Part shown: positions 20,650-49,900 of the stretch, in pieces | Numbering within the stretch: position 1 is the stretch's first letter | Layout of the letters: each line of letters opens with the position of its first letter | Source: Mesaphorura yosii | Taxonomy: Eukaryota; Arthropoda; Collembola; Poduromorpha; Tullbergiidae | Assembly (NCBI GenBank): GCA_009869945.1 | Contig: WIXG01000087.1 | Coordinates: 183,257 to 247,256, forward strand | Direction of reading: 5' to 3' | Length of the DNA: 64,000 nucleotides | Made by a program: the position numbers and the translations under genes | The notes under the pieces: model-generated | Seen by the model: the letters and a program-made list of their open reading frames with translations, nothing else | Database searches by the model: none | Told to the model about the DNA's origin: nothing

Positions 20650-21380
20650 TCATAACAATTTATACACCATAACAGCTGCGCAGTCATCAGGCGCAGCCTG
20701 TGGAAAGATTGGTTGTCCATTCTCATATTTTTCATCCCGCACGTAAATTCGACACAGCTCCTCAAATTGCAGATTAGCTGCCGCCTTTCTCGTGTACGGG
20801 CTTGTAAACACGCTTTTGCAGATCGGGTAGCCTTTGGCACGCAGGAAATTCATGCTTCGACGGTATATTTCTGTGACCAAGCCTTGCCGTGTAAACTCTG
20901 GGTCCACTGACGTCATGAGGAAGTCGGCGTAGTGATCGATGCCGTACAAATCGAAGAGATTGACCATTTCACCCGCTTTCTTGACAATACCAAACACGTC
21001 TGCGACTCGCGGAGAAAAGTAGCTCGTGTCCACGTTGGGGCCAGTTCGAGTGCACTTGTACGTCAATCTGACGCCAGCAATCTGTAAAACGTATGCGTTT
21101 CAATTTGAACTGATTAATTGGCTTTGTATCAGGCAATTTAGCTCACCTTTCCAGAAGCTTTGTCCTCGACGAAGAAGCTGAGGTTGTCGTTCAAATTCAA
21201 GAACTCCAGCACAAACTTGTCCATCTCGTCAAAATCTGTGCCGCCAACCTGTGCCATCTTGCAAAGTGGTTCTTCCGCGTAAAAGGACTTTCTTAAATGC
21301 GCTAGGATTCTTGGGTAGTCAGCCGGGGTCGCCATTTTAAACACAAATTGCTTGAAATCGCCTTCCACGTGTTCCGTCAT
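20650..21380 (-). CDS. GNAT-family N-acetyltransferase, arylalkylamine N-acetyltransferase-like
   Basis: Two exons, 21380-21147 and 21081-20650, join in frame (GGA AAG|ATT GCT) to 221 residues, the normal size for arthropod AANAT-like enzymes. These transfer acetyl from acetyl-CoA to amines such as dopamine or serotonin, for neurotransmitter inactivation and cuticle chemistry. Visible features: an N-terminal GNAT helix (ATPADYPRILAHLRKSFYAEE), the central strands, and motif A near residues 145-170, where VDPEFTRQGLVTEIYRRSM supplies the R/Q-x-x-G-x pyrophosphate-binding loop. This is followed by a helix and a C-terminal strand. No signal peptide or membrane segment, so cytosolic. A minus-strand AATAAA signal lies at 20524-20519. 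The particular substrate cannot be told from the sequence. Confidence 0.85.
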
Positions 21381-21930
21381 GTTGCATCCGCCTCAGTTTT
21401 TCAGTTTATTGAAGATTTGACGGTGACGTTCGATTGAAAGATTTTATTCTAAATGGTTGCTGGAGATCAGCTGATGCGATGTTGACTGCTACTTGAATAC
21501 TAAAGAACTCAGCCGTCTGGCATTAACTCCGGGCAAACATGCACGAAGTTTTGTTTATTACATAACGTGAAAATATGAAGTACGTACTCAACACAGCACT
21601 GATGAATCGACTCCACTCGGGATATTAACAAGGTCGACCTTGTCCTTAATTTTTTATTGGCATTACGTTCGCTGAGTCGCTGAGTTGAGGCACCAACAAA
21701 GAATTCCATCCATGCATCGTGTCGGTCGGAACCAAGACTAATATCAGCTGATTGAGTTGAGAGCCCATTTCCTAATTGCTTTGTAATTTAGTTGAGTCTG
21801 CACCGCACACGTGCGCTTGATGATTGATGTTGATCGGATGAATGAAGATCAAATCGCAATCCGTCACTTCAAAACTTGCACAGCACACAAGTTTTAATTA
21901 ATTAGCTGCATTGCGCTGGCGGTGGCTTAA

Positions 21931-22179
21931 TTATACACTTGCCACTTGGCTTGGCTCGTCCTTGCTGGGTTGAAATGTAACTTTTGGAGCACCGCATTCT
22001 TCCCAGGTACCATCCAAGCCGCACTTGGAGGCGAGCTCGTTGCCAAGAAACAGAGAGACTACAGAAATGAATCCCCTTTCGACTAGCCAGCCTGAAATGC
22101 CAGCCAGTAATGCAATAATGGGATGAAAAAAGATTATATACACTACGGAGATACGTTGATGCATTTGTCGTAACAACAT
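21931..22179 (-). CDS. Possible small single-pass membrane protein, hypothetical
   Basis: An 82-codon ATG-started frame begins MLLRQMHQRISVVYIIFFHP, runs through a hydrophobic stretch to about residue 48, and ends in a polar tail with two cysteines (ASKCGLDGTWEECGAPK). The change from a clean hydrophobic segment to a charged tail is protein-like, and there is no competing gene on this stretch. It could instead be the last exon of a larger membrane protein or chance. It sits divergently to the OTU-like gene, about 400 bp from its first sure exon. No family recognised. Confidence 0.3.
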   Translation of the reverse strand: MLLRQMHQRISVVYIIFFHPIIALLAGISGWLVERGFISVVSLFLGNELASKCGLDGTWEECGAPKVTFQPSKDEPSQVASV

Positions 22180-22585
22180 TTACGAGCTCATGGAGTCTTT
22201 AAAGGGTTCTTCAATAACCACTCCATGCAAGAAGCATTCGATTTCATAACGGATTGGTTCCACAATCGCGAATCGTACAGATGAGCTACGAAGCTACGGA
22301 CGCCTGTAATTTGTTGGCTTCTTGATTCGAGTCAGTTCTATCCTGTTGCGCTTGCCCTACTTGGTCATTAGAACAGATGCGCTGTGTGTCGATGGGGTTC
22401 AAGTTTACACTGGCTGATTGGCAAATAATGAGAAATGTCGCGGAAATTCGTGGACGCAGATTTCATGTACTCAAGTTTCGGTCTCATTCTGGATAGGATT
22501 TCTTTGAAGTCTGTAGCAATTCTGAATACCTCCTAAACTAGAATCAGAGTTCTTTCACTTAGTTTTCTTTGAAATTATTTCACAG

Positions 22586-25222
22586 GCGCCTGCCACAGCA
22601 CACGTGCTTAGAAGTGTTTGGTGTCAACTTTGACGTGCTGGCAAACCAAACTGGTCAAACTCTCTTCGACGCACTTGCACAAGCGTTATTTGGTGATTCG
22701 CTGTCCAAGGCAAATGTCGATGAAATTCACGCGGAGACGGTGGACTACATCCTGAATGAAAAATGGGACGTTTACAAAGACTTTGTTCAGAAAACGATAC
22801 TGCGTGAACGGAATGACAAGCCGCCATCGCCGCAAAAGAGTAGCAGCAAAATTCGGAGCAGCAAGGTGTGGACTCCTGCTGAGCTGCCAGACCCAAAGGA
22901 AGAGTTCAAAGCGTGCAGCTTCTCGGAGCAGAATCGCGGGTTCATGCTGGAGCTTTGTGCGGCCGCAGAAAAGTTCCAGTTCACATTTGGCGTAGTCGTT
23001 TTTGAGCCGTTCAAGAACGCCGTGGCACGATCGAACGAGGAAGGCTTCAAACTGGAGTTTTTGCGGGTCGAGCCCGAAGATTTCGTAACGCACGTGTTCA
23101 ACTGTGAGGACTCTGAGATTCTAGACCACGCCTATGTCAAGTACTACTTTCTACAGAGTGCGGACAGCAATGGCGTCCACGAATGGAACTACCTTCAACC
23201 CAAGGGGTATGAACCTTCCTCAAACCATGCACGCTGCAGATTTCTCGCGAAAGAAACGTGATAAGCTACTCGCTCTTTTAGACCATTTTACGAAGTACGA
23301 AATGGCATCTACGACGTGAAATTCAAGCGAGTAGCCAAGTTCCACGATAATATTCTTTACCACGCTAATTTGTTGAGTGATAAGTGAGTTGTGCATTCTC
23401 AATTAGTGCTGAAGGTCTTGGAACCATGAAGTCCATTAGAGAAAGCAATTTTCTCCCGAAACAGGCGACTGCAAACCACGCCAACGCCAAACTCTTCAAA
23501 CTTGCTCAATTACATTGCGCGACTGTCGATGGCGTCGGCTCGGAAGAGGTCCATGGCAAGAATCAGAACGACCATTACAGTCCCAATCGTTCTGGAGCAC
23601 AGCGGTCGAGAATTCTTCTATCGTCAATATGCATACGATGACGGCACGCTATTTTCTATTCTAAATCACTGCCTCTTCGATACTCACGCTGATCACCGAC
23701 TGGGAATTCAGCTCATAATCGCAATGAAAAGAGCCGAGGTCGCCCATTTTGTGGAACCAGTCTCGGAACGAAATGAGACGCTCAACCCTCAGAGAGGATC
23801 TGGACACCAGGCACTACGCTTTTGTAAGTATTTCGACATTGGCGATGTCCACGACTTGAGCATTGCCTCGTCCATCTTCGCATTCTCCTACGAGCTCTTT
23901 CTCCTGGATGACAATATGAACTGGTATTACGAGAGAAAAAAGGGTCCGAAAGGCGGAAGGAGTGAGTTCAAGTCAAGATCAACTGTGCATCTGGTTTTGT
24001 TTGCTCGAACAAACGAACTTAAGTTTGGCATGAAGTGGTATCGGCTGGAGCCGTTGCCGACGGCGATGGTACCGATTTTGGATGAGGACAATGACCAGAA
24101 TGAGGAGGGAGACGATGTGGACTTACAGTTGATGGCCGGAACATCAACCTCGTTCATAGCTGCCACCAGCAGCACTCGGTTCGAAACGGAGGAGGAGGAT
24201 GACAGTGGTCCACAATATTCAGAACCTGAATCGAAGGGAACGCCCTGCAGAGACTCTGATTTGTCGGAGGCGGAGGCGGCAGCATCTGGCCTGTACACAG
24301 ACGAGAAATCTGACGAAAGCCCTCACCCAACCACATCAACGTCGTCCATGTCTTCCGAAGAGGCTCGAGCGAGAATGCCCATCTTCAAAAGCATTCCAAT
24401 TCTCTTTCCCGACGCGCAGGAACCAAAATCGACAAATACAATTCAGATAATTCTGGGTAAACTAAATGAACTAATGAACCAATTAATTTTTTGCAAAAGG
24501 CAAATGACAGCGCGATGAAATGGAAAATTCCATTTGGTTTTAGGCTACATCAAAAAGATATTCAGACTTGACTCAGGACCCGCTCCCACGAAAGTATTCC
24601 TCGTGCCTAAAGTCTACTCGCCCGATAAGGAAATTCATGAAATTGGGCCGGAAATGGCTGAGATCCTAAGCGGGAATATTCCGTGGATTGCATCGATCCC
24701 CGAATCGGAGTACTTCATGGTTACAGCGAATAAGAACAATCCATCCACAATGCTGCCCTTTCTCGCTTTTCACATGGCGAAAGGAAACGATCTGGAGCGC
24801 AGAGACTGGGGAGTGACGAGCAGCAGCGAGAACGAAAACTCAGACCTCAGCCACCATGACGATGACGATGACCTGCCTCGCCTTGAACGTCTTGAAGCAA
24901 TGCAGGACAAAGATACGAACGCGAATGCAGGAGAAGAAGGCTCTGGAGCCACTCCTCCACGTAGGCAGGCGGAATCTTACTGGTACCGAGTTTTGCATCA
25001 AACCATCAGCACAATTACGAGGTAAATTCCAAAATGTCCATCTTTGTAAACAATGCACACGCCTTCGCTTTGTTGGCTAAGTGGGTAATAAGGCCACTTA
25101 TTCTTTTATGAATTATGAATTGATTTCATTGTTTTCTTGGCAGATTGAGCACTTCGGTTGGGCATAGAGTTCGGACGCTGTTTGTCAGAAATAATAGAGT
25201 TCACCTAGTCGGGGAAGCCTAG
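22586..25222 (+). CDS. Tandem OTU-like domain protein lacking catalytic cysteines (5' end uncertain)
   Basis: Exons 22586-23206, 23282-23383, 23465-24456, 24544-25021 and 25144-25222 join in frame to at least 756 residues. The first exon opens mid-codon after an acceptor, so a start exon lies upstream; an ATG at 22392 with a weak donor near 22484 fits in phase but is unproven. Domain 1 begins TGQTLFDALAQALFGDSLSK and continues IHAETVDYILNEKWDVYKDF, closely following the OTU pattern DGNCLFRALxxQLxG...LRxxVVDYI. Domain 2 begins YDDGTLFSILNHCLF. In both, the OTU catalytic Cys position is Thr. Later parts resemble the WGxxxELxALA helix (FMLELCAAAEKF; VHDLSIASSIFAF) and the HYxxL end (HEWNYLQ; KWYRLEPL). 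The C-terminus is acidic and disordered, with a DDDDD run. OTU proteins are deubiquitinases; this one is inferred to be an inactive ubiquitin-binding or scaffold form. Confidence 0.65.
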
Positions 25223-25448
25223 ATATATTATATTGAAGCCTGAATGCAATGAGTGCTTTTATATACCAGTTTTATCGCACCAATAATTTCTTGTAAAGCA
25301 ACCGCCTGTCTCGTCTCGCGTAAGCCCTGTTGCACACGCAAAATCGGAACCTTTATTCTTTAAGTGTAATTACCGACGTTAAAGTTTGGTCTTCCGTTTC
25401 CGCCGTTTGGCCTTCATCAGTCCAGTTTAGAAACTACATTGCTCCAAG

Positions 25449-26629
25449 ATGGATTTGATCCTGCTCTGCGTTTGTGGCGTTGCTCTAATTGCTCTGTGCG
25501 CCCTAAATCGCCAGCGTAATCCGAGCAACTTTCCGCCAGGTACAATTTGGCGAATTCGATTCGTGAGTCGTGTTATCATACTTTGCATTGTTGCTGTTCT
25601 TTTCCAATCAACAGGTCCGTGGGGCTTTTCGCTGGTCGGCCACCTCCCACTTCTCGGTTTGGAGTCACATACGAAGGCTATGTCTTTGATCCCAAAGTAT
25701 GGCCCCATTCTCGTTGTTAAACTAGGCTCATATCCCACTGTAATTATTTCCAACTACGAACTCGCTAAAGAAGTGCTCAACGACCCGGCCTTCAACCGAC
25801 GTCCCCAGTTTCAAGTTTTCTTGGAGCCATTCGGCGGCTCTGAAGGCCTCGTTTTCTCAACTGGGCGAACATGGAAAGAGTAACGCACGTTCACTCACTG
25901 AAGTCTAAAGGAGTTGGACGGATTTTGAACACACTCCATTGAGATTAGCATCAGCAAACAGGCACAAAAACTGGTTTGTCTAATAAGAGCAGAGGAAGGG
26001 CGTCCTATCAGCACCTACACACGGTTCAACGTGGCCATACTGAACATCTTCTGGGCAATCGTCGCCGGGGAACCCTTGTCGTAGGAGAACCCAGAAGTCC
26101 AGTGGCTCGTGCGGATCCTGAGCATTGCCTTCTCCGAGTCAAATGTGGCTACGGCTCTCTGCATGTTCATGCCTTTGTCACGATCAAAGGCTGCCGGACT
26201 CTGGAGTCAGCCGGTCAGCCGGAGAGAGTCCGTGCGGATCATGCGTGTGGCATGGGTAGGCAGACTTCGGAGTCTTGATGGTAGAGTCCGGAGTCACATA
26301 CTCTGAGCAGTAGAGAGTCCAGTGAAGTCGAGTCTGAGACGCCGACCCTTGTTTTCGGCCGTACCATGCAGTTCCCATGAGAAGAACTTCCGAGCTCTTG
26401 TGAGTAGGGATTTACTACCATGAATTAATCCCTCTCTTGACATTCTTCGTAACAGTGGTTGCACACTGCTTTTGTCTCAGCCAGGAATACGACACTTTTT
26501 GGAATATTCCAGGCTTTTCGCGTGGAGTTGGAGCCAGATTTATCTGCACCGTCTCTGGACCCGCAGCGGGCTGGAGCGACGCTTTGTCCGAAGCCTCATA
26601 AACTTGTCTTCCAGTCGCGAGGACCTTAA
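25449..26629 (+). pseudogene. Cytochrome P450 pseudogene, CYP2-clan type
   Basis: Exon 1 (25449-25539) encodes a hydrophobic anchor (MDLILLCVCGVALIALCAL) and a proline-rich hinge. It splices (CCAG|GT...CAG|GT) to exon 2 from 25615, giving PPGPWGFSLVGHLPLLGLE, then KYGPILVVKLGSYPTVIISN and FGGSEGLVFSTGRTWKE, all typical of P450 helices A to C. The same frame then runs on with clear P450 sequence (YTRFNVAILNIFWAIVAGEP; LVRILSIAFSESNVATALCM) to about 26190, but it is broken by in-frame stops at 25881, 25899, 25926 and 26082. The C-terminal exon (26456-26629, SLDPQRAGATLCPKPHKLVF) follows a usable acceptor. The part carrying the I helix, ExxR and heme-cysteine loop is missing. The gene cannot encode a P450. 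It lies 226 bp downstream of the OTU-like gene on the same strand. Confidence 0.88.
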
Positions 26630-26986
26630 TTTGACAGATTAATCAGTTAGAGTGACTTGTTAAGCGTAACATAGGGCTGAGTGAACCATTAGTCATTGAG
26701 AAGTTAATTAAAATCGTTCGTACATCACTCACTCGATCTTAGTTCGGTGCGAGTGCGAGTTATGAACATGCGAACGCTTTCAACTCCATCAACAACGGTT
26801 GTCAACTTGAAGTGAGGTTGGCAATTGGTGGGTTTGTGGTGGAGTGTGCAAGTTTTAAACGCACGTGCTTCCCTGTCGAGGCAAGACGTTAGCTACTCGG
26901 AAACCTCGCCAGCGTTTATCACCCTGTTTTTGACGAATTCCAATCAGTAATTCAGGAATAGATACTGGACGAGGGACGTAGACATC
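26630..26986. promoter_or_regulatory. NOL11 upstream region
   Basis: This 357-bp gap separates the P450 relic from the NOL11 start codon and must hold the NOL11 promoter and 5' UTR. No TATA box in a convincing place is seen. No coding frame of interest is present. Confidence 0.4.
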
Positions 26987-29316
26987 ATGGCCAAGTTACT
27001 GCCACCATTCATATTGTGCCCATTGGCCGAAAGGAAGGAGTTTCTCGGAGTCAGTTCAGAACATCAAGAAAATAAAGTCATCTTGACAATTGGGAAGAAT
27101 ATTGCCATCAGATATCATGTAAGCGTTATCACTTGTCTTGGCATTTCCTTTCTGAGTTTGTCTTAGATTGTGAGCAATAAATTGATTCTGAATGTAAAGG
27201 TCCTGGAGCAAAAGCAGGAAGTAAGTTGGATTTCCACTCGCCATTGGTTCACTTCGCGTGTCGTATATTGTGCAGATCTAGAAAAATATGCAGCAGTTAT
27301 AGATTACAACACTCTTATTCTTTTTGACGAGAATGACTCCAACCTAAGTGAAATGAAGAAGTACAAGGTAATTTAATACTACTACTATTAGTTGGATATT
27401 CTGTTAGATCTTTTTGCTAATTGTTCAAGTTTGTCTTTGCAGTTTTCTAAACCAATTGCCGAGTTGAAACCAACGAAATCCTTTGGAACCATGATCATCT
27501 TCAAGAATGGGGCGGTCAAGAGTTTATCTCATGCCATCGGATTAAAGAAACAAACATTGGAGTTGGAACTGAAAGATGTAGTCAATACTGCGGACGAGGT
27601 TCTTTTGCAGGTGGAAATAGTAGAAAAGAGAAATCAGGCGATATTGATAGTCGGATTTACAAATGAAGCCCAGGTACTTGAGCCTATGAATTTTGTTTTT
27701 GTTCATGTCATTCGGGTCTCTGATGCGCATTGCCTTCTCATTAGACGACTGACAAATGCGGCATGGACAAACTGAAAAGAGTGAAAGTGATTCTTCTGGA
27801 TCTTCGCGGAATTAATTCCGCAGCATCAGTATCTCAGAATTCCAAAGTGAATATTGGCAAGATTATTGAAAAAGACGATGACCATATTTTAGGCTTCGCG
27901 GTGAATAGTTTCTCAGAGATGGGTACCAGTTTGATTTTTTTATGTAAGTCCTCTAATCTGTAAATCTTGCGCCGGTAGTGCACAATACGCCGATAAGTAT
28001 TAGAATGTCCGAACTATCTTGCTCCTCTTTTAGGCTCTGACGGATACTTGTATCAGGAACTATTAATGGCGCCTGTCCACGAAGCCGACGAGAAATTATC
28101 AACTAATCAACAGAACGCGTCCACAAAAGTCGCTCAATTAGAAAAATATGTCAGCAGTTCCCATGCCGTGATAATAGAACCGTTAGATGCATCATCCGTG
28201 ATTATTTACGGCTGTGATCCATCCGAGGAAGGAGCTTGTGTACTTATCTACGACATTAATTACAACATTTTAATTACGAAACAGTCAGTTAAGTTGTACA
28301 GTTCGCCGCCCATGATGTCAAGAGTTGGTTCTCATATTTTTGTGCCCGTTGGCCTTCATATACTGGTCATAGGCCTCAAGTTTACACAATCTCGCCTATC
28401 GGCAGTCGTTGGAAAACATCAGATTCAAGAAACAGATTTATTCGAGAAGAGGGACCCGTTCATCCAGCCTTGGTACTCCCTGACTGAAAATTTTGACGTC
28501 AAAAAGCTTATGAACGGAGACATGGGTCAATCTGAAATGGACGTTGAAATGTCTTCCTCAACGAAAGGATTTGAAAATATTTACAAATTAGTAAAAATTC
28601 TAGAAAAAGATGGACAGCCAGAATCTATGTAAGTTGAATTCTTTCTTGCAACTCATTTGCATTTGTCAGAGGCGAAGATTAAAACGATGAATTTTTGCAG
28701 GATTTGTGGTCAAATAATTCCGCAGATCATTGAAGAAGGAAATACGGAAGCACTAAAATGGATTAATAACTACTTTTATGACATCCCGGAGTCAGCGTTG
28801 GTGTCCATCTTAGCATTTTTAATGACGTCGTCAGAAGACGAAGACAACCCGCTGGAGGGAAGCTCATCTTCTGGGAAGGCATGCCCAAATAGCGAACTGA
28901 TCAACCAAATGTTGGAACGAAATTTCGACCAAAGACAGCTTCTTCACGAATTCCGACGACTGGATTTTGAAACTGTCAAAATGTTCTTGCAGTATTTTTG
29001 GCAAAGAATGAACGAGTTGTGGAATGTTAAAGTTGTTTGTGACAATGACGAAATGGAAAGTGGCAACCACCGTGAATTGCTGCAGATTTTTAAATGGACT
29101 TGCATAGTTTTCGACGCGCAGTATCCACAATTTGTTAGTAAAAATGAAACTGAACTAATTGATAAGATATTCCAATTCATAAATGAGAAGTTCAAGTTAA
29201 TGCAAGAGGTCGAGAGTATAGAGCCATTGCTGACCCTAATTTTGTCGAAAATATCGTATGAGCCACAGCCAGCACGGAATACAAAGTATCGTGTCGAGAC
29301 TGTTACGTTTGAATAG
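26987..29316 (+). CDS. NOL11: Nucleolar protein 11, SSU processome / UTP-A (t-UTP) component
   Basis: Six exons (26987-27118, 27167-27367, 27443-27673, 27745-27943, 28034-28628, 28701-29316) join in frame to 657 residues, compared with about 719 in human. NOL11 is the metazoan partner of UTP4/cirhin, needed for rDNA transcription and early 18S rRNA processing in the nucleolus. The N-terminal half is a beta-propeller-like region (ILTIGKNIAIRYHI, YAAVIDYNTLILFD) that includes SDGYLYQELL, matching the human SDGCIYETL segment. The helical C-terminal half has DIPESALVSILAFLMTSSED, LLHEFRRLDFETVKMFLQYF and WTCIVFDAQYPQFV, each corresponding to human NOL11 in the same order. All introns are 48-90 bp with standard ends. 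The likely poly(A) signal is ATTAAA at 29403-29408, which lies inside the 3' region of the convergent UQCRC2. Confidence 0.9.
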
Positions 29317-34091: not shown

Positions 34092-35304
34092 TCACACAAC
34101 GCTACCGTTAAATCTTATATAATTAAAGTTCGAATCATTTTTTGGGTTATTGACGATTGTTCTTGGAAGTTCAGATTTTCTTAGCCCTTCTATGTACTTT
34201 CCTCTATTGTACAGAAATACACCGCCTAACGCTATCGAAATTCCAAATACATTTGACATGCTAACAGGATTTCGAAGTAAAAGTAAGGAGACTCCGATTA
34301 TTGCCACTCTCTTTGCCGACGATGCTACGGCGTAGGTTAACGGTGTGACCAGTCTTAGCACTGTGAATGCGATCAAGTTTTGGAAAAAGTTGAGGAATCC
34401 ATCGAGTATTAAAAGCCCACATATTGACGTTGGATCGTGAAGCTCCGTTGTTCCCTGCAAAAATAGCGCACACGTTAAGTGACTGACTAGAAATAGCCTG
34501 CAGTTAATTACAGCTTGGAAACTTACCACCCACATCTGCCTTGCATCCAAAATTAACCACACAGGCGAGAACATGCACAGACTAATTCTTGCTAGTGTCG
34601 CAAGCAGTTGGAATTGATGGATTCCCGTCTGCTTCAGTACGCGTTTCGAAAATATGTGCTGCAAACTGAAGCAGCATGTCGCCGCCAACGCTGCAAATCG
34701 TAAAGAATCAGGTCAATGAGTTAGCAATTCAATCACAAGCTTTTCCGAAAGCTTACCTGAGATTAACCCGATCATGTCGAAACTAAATTCAGTCGCGGAT
34801 GCGATGATAGCGCCCACGACTATTGGAACTAAGCTAAAGTAAATCATCTTCGTCTGTTTCTCTCCAAATAGGACTCTTGATAAGACGACAGTGAAGATTG
34901 GCATAGTCGCCTTGACTGAAAAGCAGCAGAAACATCAATATTCATTGTTGTGTCCCTTCCCTTCATATATCGATAAAGATTCCAAGAGTTCAGTGCTTAC
35001 TTGTGTGGGCATAACTGACGGGTACTTTCCAAATGCTGATGTGCGATGAGACACTGGCAAGGAATTTGCCACAGGCCAGTGGAATGACGATTGTACGATA
35101 AATACTTTTGCTAATGTCACCTTTTCTTGTTATCGATCTCAGCAATGGTTCTGAACATAGTGATACCGTTAAGAGCTGGACCATGGTCAGCGTCAGCGGG
35201 TACGGGAACTGATTGAGAAGAGTCTTGCCAACGACTGAGTTCAGACTGGAGACCGTGTACCACAACACACACAAGCCCAAAATTATCGCCCATCTTGGTA
35301 CCAT
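34092..35304 (-). CDS. SLC35E1: Solute carrier family 35 member E1-like transporter
   Basis: Four exons (35304-35001, 34915-34757, 34690-34527, 34454-34092) join in frame to 329 residues. The open frame extends a few codons upstream, but the first ATG is at 35304 ([20 protein letters not shown]). The protein is a DMT-superfamily transporter of the triose-phosphate/nucleotide-sugar type with about ten membrane helices, expected in Golgi/ER membranes; the SLC35E1 substrate is not established. Family-typical segments are [20 protein letters not shown] followed by SYAHT and [45 protein letters not shown], and [20 protein letters not shown] near the end. The C-terminal tail is much shorter than in human SLC35E1 (410 residues), which ends in a long polar tail. 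An upstream in-frame start exon cannot be excluded. Confidence 0.88.
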
Positions 35305-45900: not shown

Positions 45901-46947
45901 CAAGTATGAGGCTCAGGCTGAGGCTCGTTCGCATGGTGGATTCACATTCTCTCCCTCTCCATACAATTTATGATACTACATTTGAAGTAGTTGAGCATAT
46001 TCTCTATATTTCTATGCCTGCCTGCTGCTGGGTTCCACGGACTTTCTCCAGCTTTCTCCGTGTGGGCTAGGCTGCTGAAATTTTCTCGACTCGCCATCGG
46101 TTTCATTTACTAGGAACCTGAACCATGGCATGGCTGGCATGTGTGTTATTCCTCATATGCTTGGCTTGGCTCGGTTCTGTTCCACTTTCTCCTCCGTTCA
46201 TCTTCACCACACCGTACACCGAGCGATTCTCAGGCGAGCCAGCAGCTGTACGCTGCGTTGCGTGCACGAAGCACTTTGTGCAGTGTGTTTTTCCAGTTCG
46301 TGGCCGTACGCAGCGCAGCGCCCGCCGTACTCTTGGACTCCCATTTCGGCTCGCACTCAATGTGAGTTTCGGATAGGATGCGCAAAGGACACACGGCCCG
46401 TTCCATTCAGTGAACTAGAGAGAGTGAGAGTGAACGGGCAGACGGTGAAAGTTTCTCCTCCTTCGACTACGACTGGACGTGAACTTGTTCTGCTCTTTGC
46501 GCGGTGCGTGGTGCAGTGCGTGCGTGCGTGCACGAAACTGCTGTTAAGATTGTAGTTTTGAGGAAATGTAGGAAATAGTGACTGTTTGTTCATACGCACA
46601 CGCATAAGCTTTGTTACAATTTCCCACAATGGAGAAGGTAGTCGAAGAGGCAGGCCACACTGCTTCCGAGCCCGGGCTGATTGCAATTTCTGGTCACACT
46701 GCAGTAAAGAAGAGAAAATGAGTCGAGTGATGACAGAGACAAATAACTCGACAGCGTTTCATATTCCTCGGTGCATCTTAGCGTTAAGTTCAGAAGAGGA
46801 GGCAGTGACAGAATACAAGTGTGCATCTCGCCACGTGAGAAATTATGACGTAGAGAGAGCGTCAGCGTCAGAGACGGTGGTAGTATGACAAAGTTAAATG
46901 TAGCATAAGTAATTCAGTCCACAGTCGCACGAAAAGCGAAGGGCGAA

Positions 46948-49900
46948 ATGGCGAGTAAAAACGTGGGCAGTACGACTCCGTCGTCGTCCAAGAGTTGGAG
47001 AGGCGGCGGCGGCGAGGGGGTGGGAATGGCGATGGCGGGCACGAATGACGGTGGCAGTAGCGGTATCCCACACGGCGGCATTTCTGCCAAAACGTATCCT
47101 CCGCCGGTTCGAGCTTCTTCAAGTGCTCAACATCAACAACACTTTCCACATTATTCAGTGGTCACAAAAGGGCATCGCGGCGGCGGCGATCCGACGACTC
47201 CGGGTCACTCGAAGGCGCACTTGAGACAATCGCAGAACGATATTACATCATTCGTCCCACCTCCGCCACCGTCTAGTATTCAGGCAGGCCACCAGCATCA
47301 CCACGGAAAGCATCATCAACACGCGCCAGGCTCGTCGAGGCAACGCTGGCCGAGTGGCGGTGCAGCAGTAGCAAATCACAGTGGCAGCGGTGGCGGTGGA
47401 GCTGGAAGTGCGGGTCGCAGTGTGCTCGGTGCTACAAGTGCTCTGCCTGGTGCGGGTGGTGATATAGAAAACATTGACACTTGCTCACGTAATCCGCTCT
47501 TTTGTCTCGTGTGTAACAATGTGTTCGAAGATCCAAGACTTTTATCTTGTTATCATTCCTTTTGTGCCAAGTGTTTGGATGGAAGAATAGGAGATACGAA
47601 AATTACGTGTCCGTTGTGTGGGTGAGTTGGCAAATTAGCTTTGTCATCTTTCATTTCTTTCGTACTTTCTTGCTTGCTCGTACTGGTATTGCTTTGATTC
47701 TTTGATCATCAAGAAATTTCTTACGCTCGCTGCGATGCGACGTGTGACGTGATTGCTCAAATGTGATTTCAAGCACTTCACATTTCGCTTTTCAATCACG
47801 CAAATACAAGTGAACAAGTGGAAACTTCCTTTTGACGTGCGTGGGTGCAGACACAGACTTTCCTGCTGCAGCAGGCAATTCCCAGGCAGGCTCGTTCGTT
47901 TTGCGATGGGCATTGCACCATTACACCTGCTAGCCTGCTGAATGAAGTGCGCGTGGGGGTGAACAAGAATGCTATCAATTAGTATGCGGTTGTAAATGTT
48001 CAAGGCCCTTGTTACGAGATTCGACTTCAAAGTAGTACGTACAATTAAGTGCATCTTATTGAATACCTCAAATTTCAGGCTACGAAATCTTACCCTTCAC
48101 CTTCGCCCTCGCCTTCTTGAACTCCTTCTTGTATCGGTCGTGCTATCATTATGTTGTAGTAATCCGATCCAGAATCCAGATCCCGTATTGGATTTCATTA
48201 CATAGAAACACGAGACGTGAGAGGCAGGAGCGAGTAGCGAGAACGAACCTGAAATGACATGACCATGTTATGATTATCGTCCCGAATTACGAATTGCGAA
48301 TGGCGAACAGAGAAATGCAATGGTGAATGGATGATGGATACATCATGCAAGAAGCAAGAGACTGATGCGGATTGTCTGGAACCCGAAACTCATGACATAT
48401 GACATTTCCCTTAAGAGCCTTCCTTTCTTTTCTGAATCTACAATTCTCGTTCTCGCGTTTCACATTCGCATTTCGCATTTCTGAATCTCACGAATCACGA
48501 AATCATGATCCCATCACAGTATGGACGAAAACGCGGGAGCGGGCAGGCAGGTAGAACAAGAAAGACTCGTTCCAGTTTCATGACATGTAGCAATAATAAT
48601 ACGCCAGGCGTACAAGCGCCTTATGTATAATAAAATACAGTAATAATGCGGAAAAGCGAATGGTGAATGGCGAATGTGAATCTTGAAAGAAACGTAACAG
48701 AACACGGCACGGCGACGGCAGCATACACATCGGCGTCAGCATTATAAAGTTGAAAGTTGGAACGGAGGAGCGAACGGAACATTTTCCCTTGGCTGCTCCG
48801 CGCCGCCTTGCTGCTGTTCTTTTGTGGATCTTCTCGAACGAGCCGAGCCTTCTCAGGTCGTGGAGAGAAAAATGTGAGCAAAGATATGAACTGTGAACTG
48901 AATATTTTCTCTACCTTTTTGAAAAATAATATGAGATGCGGGTCGACAGAGTGTGATTTGAATTTTGAAGAGGCTCGGGCCAGTGCAGGTTCGTATTCAC
49001 ATACAATTTTTGGAGTCGACGACAAAAAGCCGTCGGTCGTTGGGCCACCGCTCGAGTTGTGTTGGTTCAGAATTCAGAGTTCAGTGTGTCAGATGAAGAC
49101 AAGTTCTGTACCGAGCCACCTTTGTACGGGACTTGAATTGGACTGACAACCGCACCGCATCGCACTGCATGGCGAAAGCAAATGCAAAGGGAAAGTAGAG
49201 CGGTCTAAACCTCTCTTGCATCAGCTTCGCCTTGCCTTGCCTGTAACGCGCAGCGCAGACAAGGCACAATGGTCTTAATAAATATATTCGTTATGTTTGT
49301 CTCAGTGTTTTCTTCTTTCAAATGTAATTTATCATTTGCGTCGAGTTGAAAGAAAAGTTCGTCTTCGTCTTCGTCGGTATGTTTCAGTCCGGGTACCTTT
49401 TTCTCTTTGGGATTTTTCATCTTGCTGAATTCATTCGTCTATCACCTTTTCTTCTTCTCTTGAGTTCTGAGATCCTTTTCCTTTTTTGTTTTGGGTTTTC
49501 CGTTTTCTCATCATGCAGGCAGGCTGGCTACCGGTGCAGTTCTTCAGAATAAAAAGGAAAGAGTAAGCAAACTCAATTCGCCACAGCCAGCCACACGAGT
49601 ACGACGACAACGAGGAAGGAGATGACTTTGACTGAGCAAACTTTTGACGGTGCGTTGGTTCGGTTCGGTTTTGTCTGAAATCCTTCCTCTTTCTCTTTCC
49701 ATACGAGAGACGAGAACCTGAATTGCTTATCTCAACCACTTATTGCGACTAATATGTGTAAGGCATAATTTTTTGAAGAATTATCCGTCAAAATTACGGC
49801 ATGCATGGAAATTAATCTTTCAAACAAAGTTTTTATAATGACTTTTTGTTCCTGCGCTGCTGCTGCGGTATCTGTTAACGAGTCTTCGGCCTCGACAGTC

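Follow-up and report, generated by a model that had tools for sequence, protein, structure and literature searches.

A diverged Mesaphorura yosii gene with a putative N-terminal OTU-like domain lacking the catalytic residues

The DNA analysed here, referred to as the window, is a stretch of 64,000 nucleotides from the Mesaphorura yosii (Collembola) contig WIXG01000087.1, positions 183257-247256, and all positions below are counted from its first letter. On its forward strand, 22586-25222 is a real gene, with canonical borders and matching phases over five exons. From 22586 on, the exons comprise 757 codons and end in the stop TAG at 25220-25222. A start exon was added to give the working protein model of 781 residues, which is composed as follows.

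22435-22508, forward strand: candidate first coding exon, a best guess and uncertain (24 codons, MSRKFVDADF..., phase 2)
22586-23206, forward strand: exon A, with OTU-like domain 1, interrupted by about 34 residues of low complexity; placed by splice sites and phase
23282-23383, forward strand: exon separating the two proposed domains; placed by splice sites and phase
23465-24456, forward strand: exon B, with proposed domain 2 and then an acidic Ser/Thr-rich stretch; placed by splice sites and phase
24544-25021, forward strand: exon D, free of domains by assignment, with a second acidic run, HHDDDDDLPRLERLEA; placed by splice sites and phase
25144-25222, forward strand: last exon, ending in TAG at 25220-25222; placed by splice site and phase

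The candidate start exon has its own ATG, an in-frame stop immediately 5' of it, a phase-2 donor and a 77-base intron. Its donor, GAA/gtctgt, is weak, agreeing with the consensus at five of nine positions. A Met is found upstream of or at the junction for 4 of the 19 phase-2 donors listed (exon ends 21579, 21976, 22466 and 22508); the alternative exon end at 21976 offers a better donor than 22508 but leaves a 609-base intron. When codon usage was scored, with other genes from the same genome as the training set, exons A (0.161), B (0.101) and D (0.126) were positive in the modelled frame, and each of the five remaining frames gave a negative value. TGQTLF and DDGTLF, the strings from which two OTU-like domains with Thr for the catalytic Cys had been proposed in the initial annotation, are both present in frame in this gene, the former in exon 22586-23206, where its T is residue 25 counted from the start of the exon, and the latter in exon 23465-24456. 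The acidic tail described there was borne out as to composition, and not as to a position at the tail only: the acidic stretches fall at about residues 471-550 and 691-716 of the 781-residue model, between or within other coding parts, and more coding sequence follows each of them.

The window also carries the following features.

20653-21392, reverse strand: two open stretches with the look of a GNAT-type acetyltransferase
21934-22179, reverse strand: ATG-initiated open frame of 82 residues with a hydrophobic stretch and KCGLDGTWEECG, and no Pfam match at E <= 0.01
25449-26200, forward strand: start of an adjoining cytochrome P450 gene (Pfam p450, E 8.6e-14)
27997-29313, forward strand: Nucleolar protein 11 gene (NOL11_N, Nol11_C)
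34095-34712, reverse strand: TPT/SLC35-type sugar-phosphate transporter (Pfam TPT, E 1.4e-32)
46909-47622, forward strand: long N-terminal region of low complexity, then a RING finger

Pfam matched 20653-21099 weakly to Gly_acyl_tr_C and to Acetyltransf families, each time below the cut-off. In the P450 stretch an in-frame stop was seen by eye after GEPLS, and the heme-binding motif FxxGxRxCxG was absent from the forward frames of 25401-27900. This stretch, 25449-26200, looks like a fragment or pseudogene.

Standard profile searches returned no OTU domain for the gene at 22586-25222. With Pfam, PF02338 was absent at E <= 10 from exon A, from the halves of exon A, from domain 2 and from the spliced protein part; the same search recognised true OTUs of this genome, including a fragment of 56 residues (E 0.0019, below the curated cut-off). 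Similarly, no OTU was returned by phmmer against all PDB chains, nor by searching the PDB with a two-row profile that combines the Cys-helix regions of the two domains. The PDB matches that did appear, 8ugc (E 0.0057) and 6ahx (E 1.2) for the Cys-helix region and 2n93 (E 0.76) for exon A, are not OTUs, and a match of exon A to AAA_23 (E 0.093 and 0.12, below the cut-off) was attributed to chance. A profile that mixes true OTUs with both domains retrieves OTUs, which proves nothing. Structure prediction of each half, which had been proposed as a check, was uninformative, with mean pLDDT near 33 and 35: from single sequences without homologues, AlphaFold2 gave a mean pLDDT of 33.4 and a pTM of 0.22 for domain 1, and 34.8 and 0.26 for domain 2. 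The best Foldseek matches of the low-confidence domain 1 model were Rubisco small subunits, and were set aside as noise.

The initial annotation had held that a lack of OTU hits in profile searches would speak against its assignment. Pfam and HMMER searches did lack such hits, but a test of individual OTU segments did not. For this test, position profiles of four OTU segments were derived from true OTUs of the M. yosii genome and the PDB, and scanned over six-frame open reading frames of at least 50 amino acids within the window. Because the catalytic Cys column was masked in the profiles, a lost Cys carried no penalty. Three segments of exon A were identified.

22650-22697, forward strand: TGQTLFDALAQALFGD, corresponding to the Cys-loop and Cys-helix of OTUs, in which Thr occupies both the Asp and the Cys position
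22716-22784, forward strand: VDEIHAETVDYILNEKWDVYKDF, equivalent of OTU helix 2 (LRxxVVDYL...), rank 2 of 30,468 windows at 5.9 bits
22932-23000, forward strand: NRGFMLELCAAAEKFQFTFGVVV, corresponding to the GGxxEI helix and strand of OTUs, rank 7 of 30,468 at only 0.9 bits

With the Cys-masked Cys-helix profile, TGQTLFDALAQALFGD ranked first among 34,374 windows at 23.9 bits, and the runner-up scored 10.7. The helix 2 and helix-strand segments of exon A both lie where expected; hhalign placed NRGFMLELCAAAEKFQFTFGVVV in the same register, with 5 of 100 shuffles equally good. Domain 1 thus reads TGQT where OTUs have DGxC, so that the catalytic Asp and Cys are both replaced by Thr. The fourth segment, the His-loop, had no convincing match in either domain, the best ranks being 79 and 75 of 32,700 and in the wrong places; the earlier reading of a late His/Trp-Leu end as the OTU His-loop was not upheld.

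The three segments were combined in an ordered score, which requires Cys-helix, helix 2 and helix-strand to occur in this order and within set distances. The distance limits were set with the layout of domain 1 known, and shuffled sequences were scored under identical limits. Exon A reached 30.7 (z 8.0), a value attained by none of 1000 shuffles (best 7.4), and the next best among 122 window pieces was -8.5. Most of this signal, 23.9 of the 30.7 bits, comes from one segment of 16 residues. True OTUs that were left out, with their own kind removed from the profiles, scored 65.8 (z 12.9) for OTUD5, 22.4 (z 7.0) for the OTU1 of 3by4, which was padded by two Ala, and 17.7 (z 5.8) for OTUB, in which the Cys-helix placed was not the true one. 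An OTUD4 sequence scored 79.2. In 64 pieces of six other loci, three exceeded -8, all in OTU genes, two of which had been used in the profiles; the best non-OTU control piece, from an ATRX-like gene region, scored -8.3. Since its score falls within the range of the left-out true OTUs, domain 1 behaves as a true but divergent OTU would. Consistent results came from hhalign, which aligned domain 1 to a set of eight OTUs in the same register with P 0.0016, ahead of all 279 negatives, and from HMMER with an eight-row OTU profile, where domain 1 scored 10.0 bits (E 0.043) and exceeded each of 600 shuffles as well as every window open reading frame but its own. Sequence comparison thus supports the assignment of domain 1 as a putative Cys-less relative of OTU domains.

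A first alternative to this assignment is that the gene encodes an orphan, lineage-specific protein that is not an OTU, in which a helix resembles the OTU Cys-helix by chance. Such a protein would explain why standard profile and fold searches return no OTU, and it would fit the lack of relatives. The assembly of 93.0 Mb and 1127 contigs yielded no second copy: protein searches of it, scoring only the best first-look candidates, returned the gene itself alone, and no paralogue that keeps the Cys was found there. No relative was confirmed in plasmids, bacterial genomes or viral contigs, and arthropods beyond its own assembly lay outside these collections. Viral-contig matches to the DGNCLFRA codon pattern (L014, L015) were discarded, being without a long OTU-like frame. 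Against chance resemblance stands the ordered score of domain 1, which no shuffle and no other window piece equalled and which lies among those of the left-out true OTUs; we regard an orphan as quite improbable. The other alternatives concern domain 2, for which two segments were proposed.

23637-23684, forward strand: DDGTLFSILNHCLFDT, proposed second degenerate Cys-helix, picked once order and spacing were imposed
23685-23753, forward strand: HADHRLGIQLIIAMKRAEVAHFV, which may be helix 2 of domain 2, rank 4 of 30,468 windows at 1.8 bits

If both domains are OTUs, the protein would carry tandem pseudo-OTU domains with Thr for Cys in each, and might serve as a ubiquitin reader or as an antagonist of active deubiquitinases. 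In the DDGTLF register, domain 2 had the second-best ordered score of the 122 window pieces (-8.5), but 40 of 1000 shuffles matched it and the non-OTU control from the ATRX-like gene region was level with it (-8.3). Alone, DDGTLFSILNHCLFDT, which contains DDGTLF, scored -2.9 bits and ranked 247 of 34,374. Aligned with eight OTUs by hhalign, domain 2 again took the DDGTLF register (P 0.025), but was outscored by 9 of 279 negatives, and the eight-row OTU profile in HMMER left it at noise (1.9 bits). Against the OTUD4 sequence, it was aligned at the DDGTLF motif for both the core and the full stretch (equalled by 33 and by 15 of 1000 shuffles, respectively), with the Thr adjoining a gap at the Cys. 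The pattern G-x(0,1)-[CST]-L-[FY]-x2-[LIVMA]-x3-[LIVMA]-[FYLG] had two matches in 127,996 six-frame codons, both at the proposed Cys-helix sites, and was drawn up post hoc, after both sites had been seen. The C-terminal half of domain 2, in contrast, gave no OTU signal (100 of 100 shuffles equally good), and the two domains are barely alike (17 of 400 shuffles as good); BLASTP linked them only through a stretch of 17 residues outside the OTU register (E 0.005 in a single comparison). As to ubiquitin reading, the study of Drosophila CG3251 reports that its binding of ubiquitin chains was not significant, with the data not shown there (PMC4654579). A second OTU-like domain, and hence a tandem pseudo-OTU architecture, is thus possible from these comparisons, and of the two OTU-like domains first annotated, domain 1 was supported by the Cys-masked test and domain 2 was only suggestive. 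We hold a tandem protein that reads ubiquitin or antagonises deubiquitinases to be rather unlikely. Equally built on two Thr-bearing domains is a lineage-specific non-catalytic scaffold with long acidic linkers that may have taken the place of OTUD4/Otu in this lineage, a version that we consider unlikely. The tandem arrangement overlaps with the preferred interpretation of an N-terminal OTU domain without catalytic residues, and adds domain 2 to it. Domain 2 might instead be an OTU in another register, with NHCLF as its Cys motif and the catalytic Cys kept. The NHCLF segment at 23661 scored better as a single segment without spacing (6.1 bits, rank 6 of 34,374), and hhalign with a four-row profile picked this register (P 0.029). 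However, this register overlaps helix 2 and leaves no room for it, and therefore does not fit; the His-loop profile, too, gave it no convincing match. A retained Cys at NHCLF is in our judgement barely credible.

Two further readings of the C-terminal parts were dropped. A Tudor domain at domain 2, suggested by the likeness of YAYDDGTLFSIL to a Tudor strand, had no Pfam match, and none was found by Pfam in any part of the protein. A third OTU-like repeat in exon D, where the order of helices and strands looked alike by eye, was equalled in score by 844 of 1000 shuffles, and exon D had neither a Pfam match nor an OTU signal in the ordered score.

Inactive OTU proteins are known from flies and humans. 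According to PMC4654579, two Drosophila proteins of the OTUD4 subfamily, Otu and CG3251, have Ser in place of the catalytic Cys and left ubiquitin chains uncut in tests, and putting the Cys back did not revive activity. The same study describes losses of the Cys several times in insects within the OTUD4/Otu branch, together with gene duplications, and biological roles of Otu and CG3251 despite the absence of deubiquitinase activity in its tests. Like these proteins, as they are described in PMC4654579, the M. yosii gene is from an arthropod, has its OTU domain near the N-terminus and carries a hydroxyl residue for the Cys, Ser40 in Drosophila Otu and CG3251 and Thr at about residue 50 in the M. 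yosii model. By the same account, Otu and CG3251 keep the Asp and His and are easily recognised as OTU domains, whereas in M. yosii the Asp is gone and the His-loop was not found; they also have a Tudor domain, and none was found in the M. yosii protein. The human pseudo-OTU FAM105A/OTULINL is described in PMC7862380 as having a disrupted triad (Asp139/His350/His352) and leaving di-ubiquitin uncleaved, and it resembles domain 1 in being an OTU domain with such a triad. OTULINL has a domain of the OTULIN type, about 33% identical to OTULIN, and is predicted to carry a membrane motif (PMC7862380); neither was apparent in the M. yosii protein. Vertnin, a human protein, is counted among the inactive OTU-like homologues in PMC10318531, and is like the M. 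yosii protein by that description alone. Human OTUs are listed in PMC3705208. With OTUD-type enzymes of PF02338, domain 1 has in common the order of Cys-helix, helix 2 and helix-strand; unlike them, it has no Pfam match, lacks the catalytic Asp and Cys, and has no His-loop that was found. Neither a tandem pseudo-OTU protein nor a case of Thr for Cys was found in the open-access literature searched.

Taken with these precedents, the reading that we moderately favour is a diverged arthropod gene, found once, whose N-terminal OTU domain is without catalytic residues and which most likely acts as a scaffold or adaptor. By comparison of sequences, the N-terminal domain probably descends from an OTU deubiquitinase, with loss of its catalytic residues. 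With Thr in place of both Asp and Cys and without a recognisable His-loop, the protein would not be expected to cut ubiquitin by the OTU mechanism. A role as scaffold or adaptor could be exerted through the OTU fold together with the long acidic Ser/Thr-rich segments behind it. By analogy, the best and closest precedent would be the OTUD4/Otu branch, in which, according to PMC4654579, flies repeatedly lost the Cys and the protein is still needed. Membership of the gene in that branch is a guess. The OTU-like segment sits at the N-terminal end of the protein model. Alignments of domain 1 with the core or full stretch of OTUD4 gave z of 1.3 to 3.0 (0.0 to 1.3 for its C-terminal half alone), compared with 0.2 to 2.6 for OTUs of its own genome, showing no clear preference for OTUD4. 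A family profile found no OTUD4-like OTU in the assembly, which fits, without proving, that this gene stands in for OTUD4/Otu. When the human OTUD4 sequence was searched against the assembly, six matches were obtained: five fell in recognised OTU loci, and the sixth, on contig C450 (E 0.24), hit an unrelated helicase, judged SNF2/ATRX-like by eye, and was rejected. The gene probably encodes, as far as can be judged from its sequence, a further OTU-class pseudo-deubiquitinase, dead OTU proteins being already known in flies and humans. As an extreme arthropod case, lacking the Asp too and perhaps carrying two successive domains, it would help to show which surfaces are kept without catalysis; if domain 2 is not an OTU, it would be one more divergent pseudo-deubiquitinase of modest interest.

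The protein content of the assembly looks arthropod, with 66 matches at E <= 0.001 to Chitin_bind_4, a cuticle-protein family of arthropods; a search for nematode cuticle collagen was negative, as was its control, and that absence carries little weight. The recognised OTUs of this genome resemble OTUD5 (two genes), OTUD6, OTUD3, YOD1, OTUB and an OTUD7/VCPIP type. In the two OTUD5-like genes, L003 (C56) and L006/L007 (C222), the domain lies in a single long exon in one and is split over several frames in the other. One of this pair is possibly a retrocopy or duplicate.
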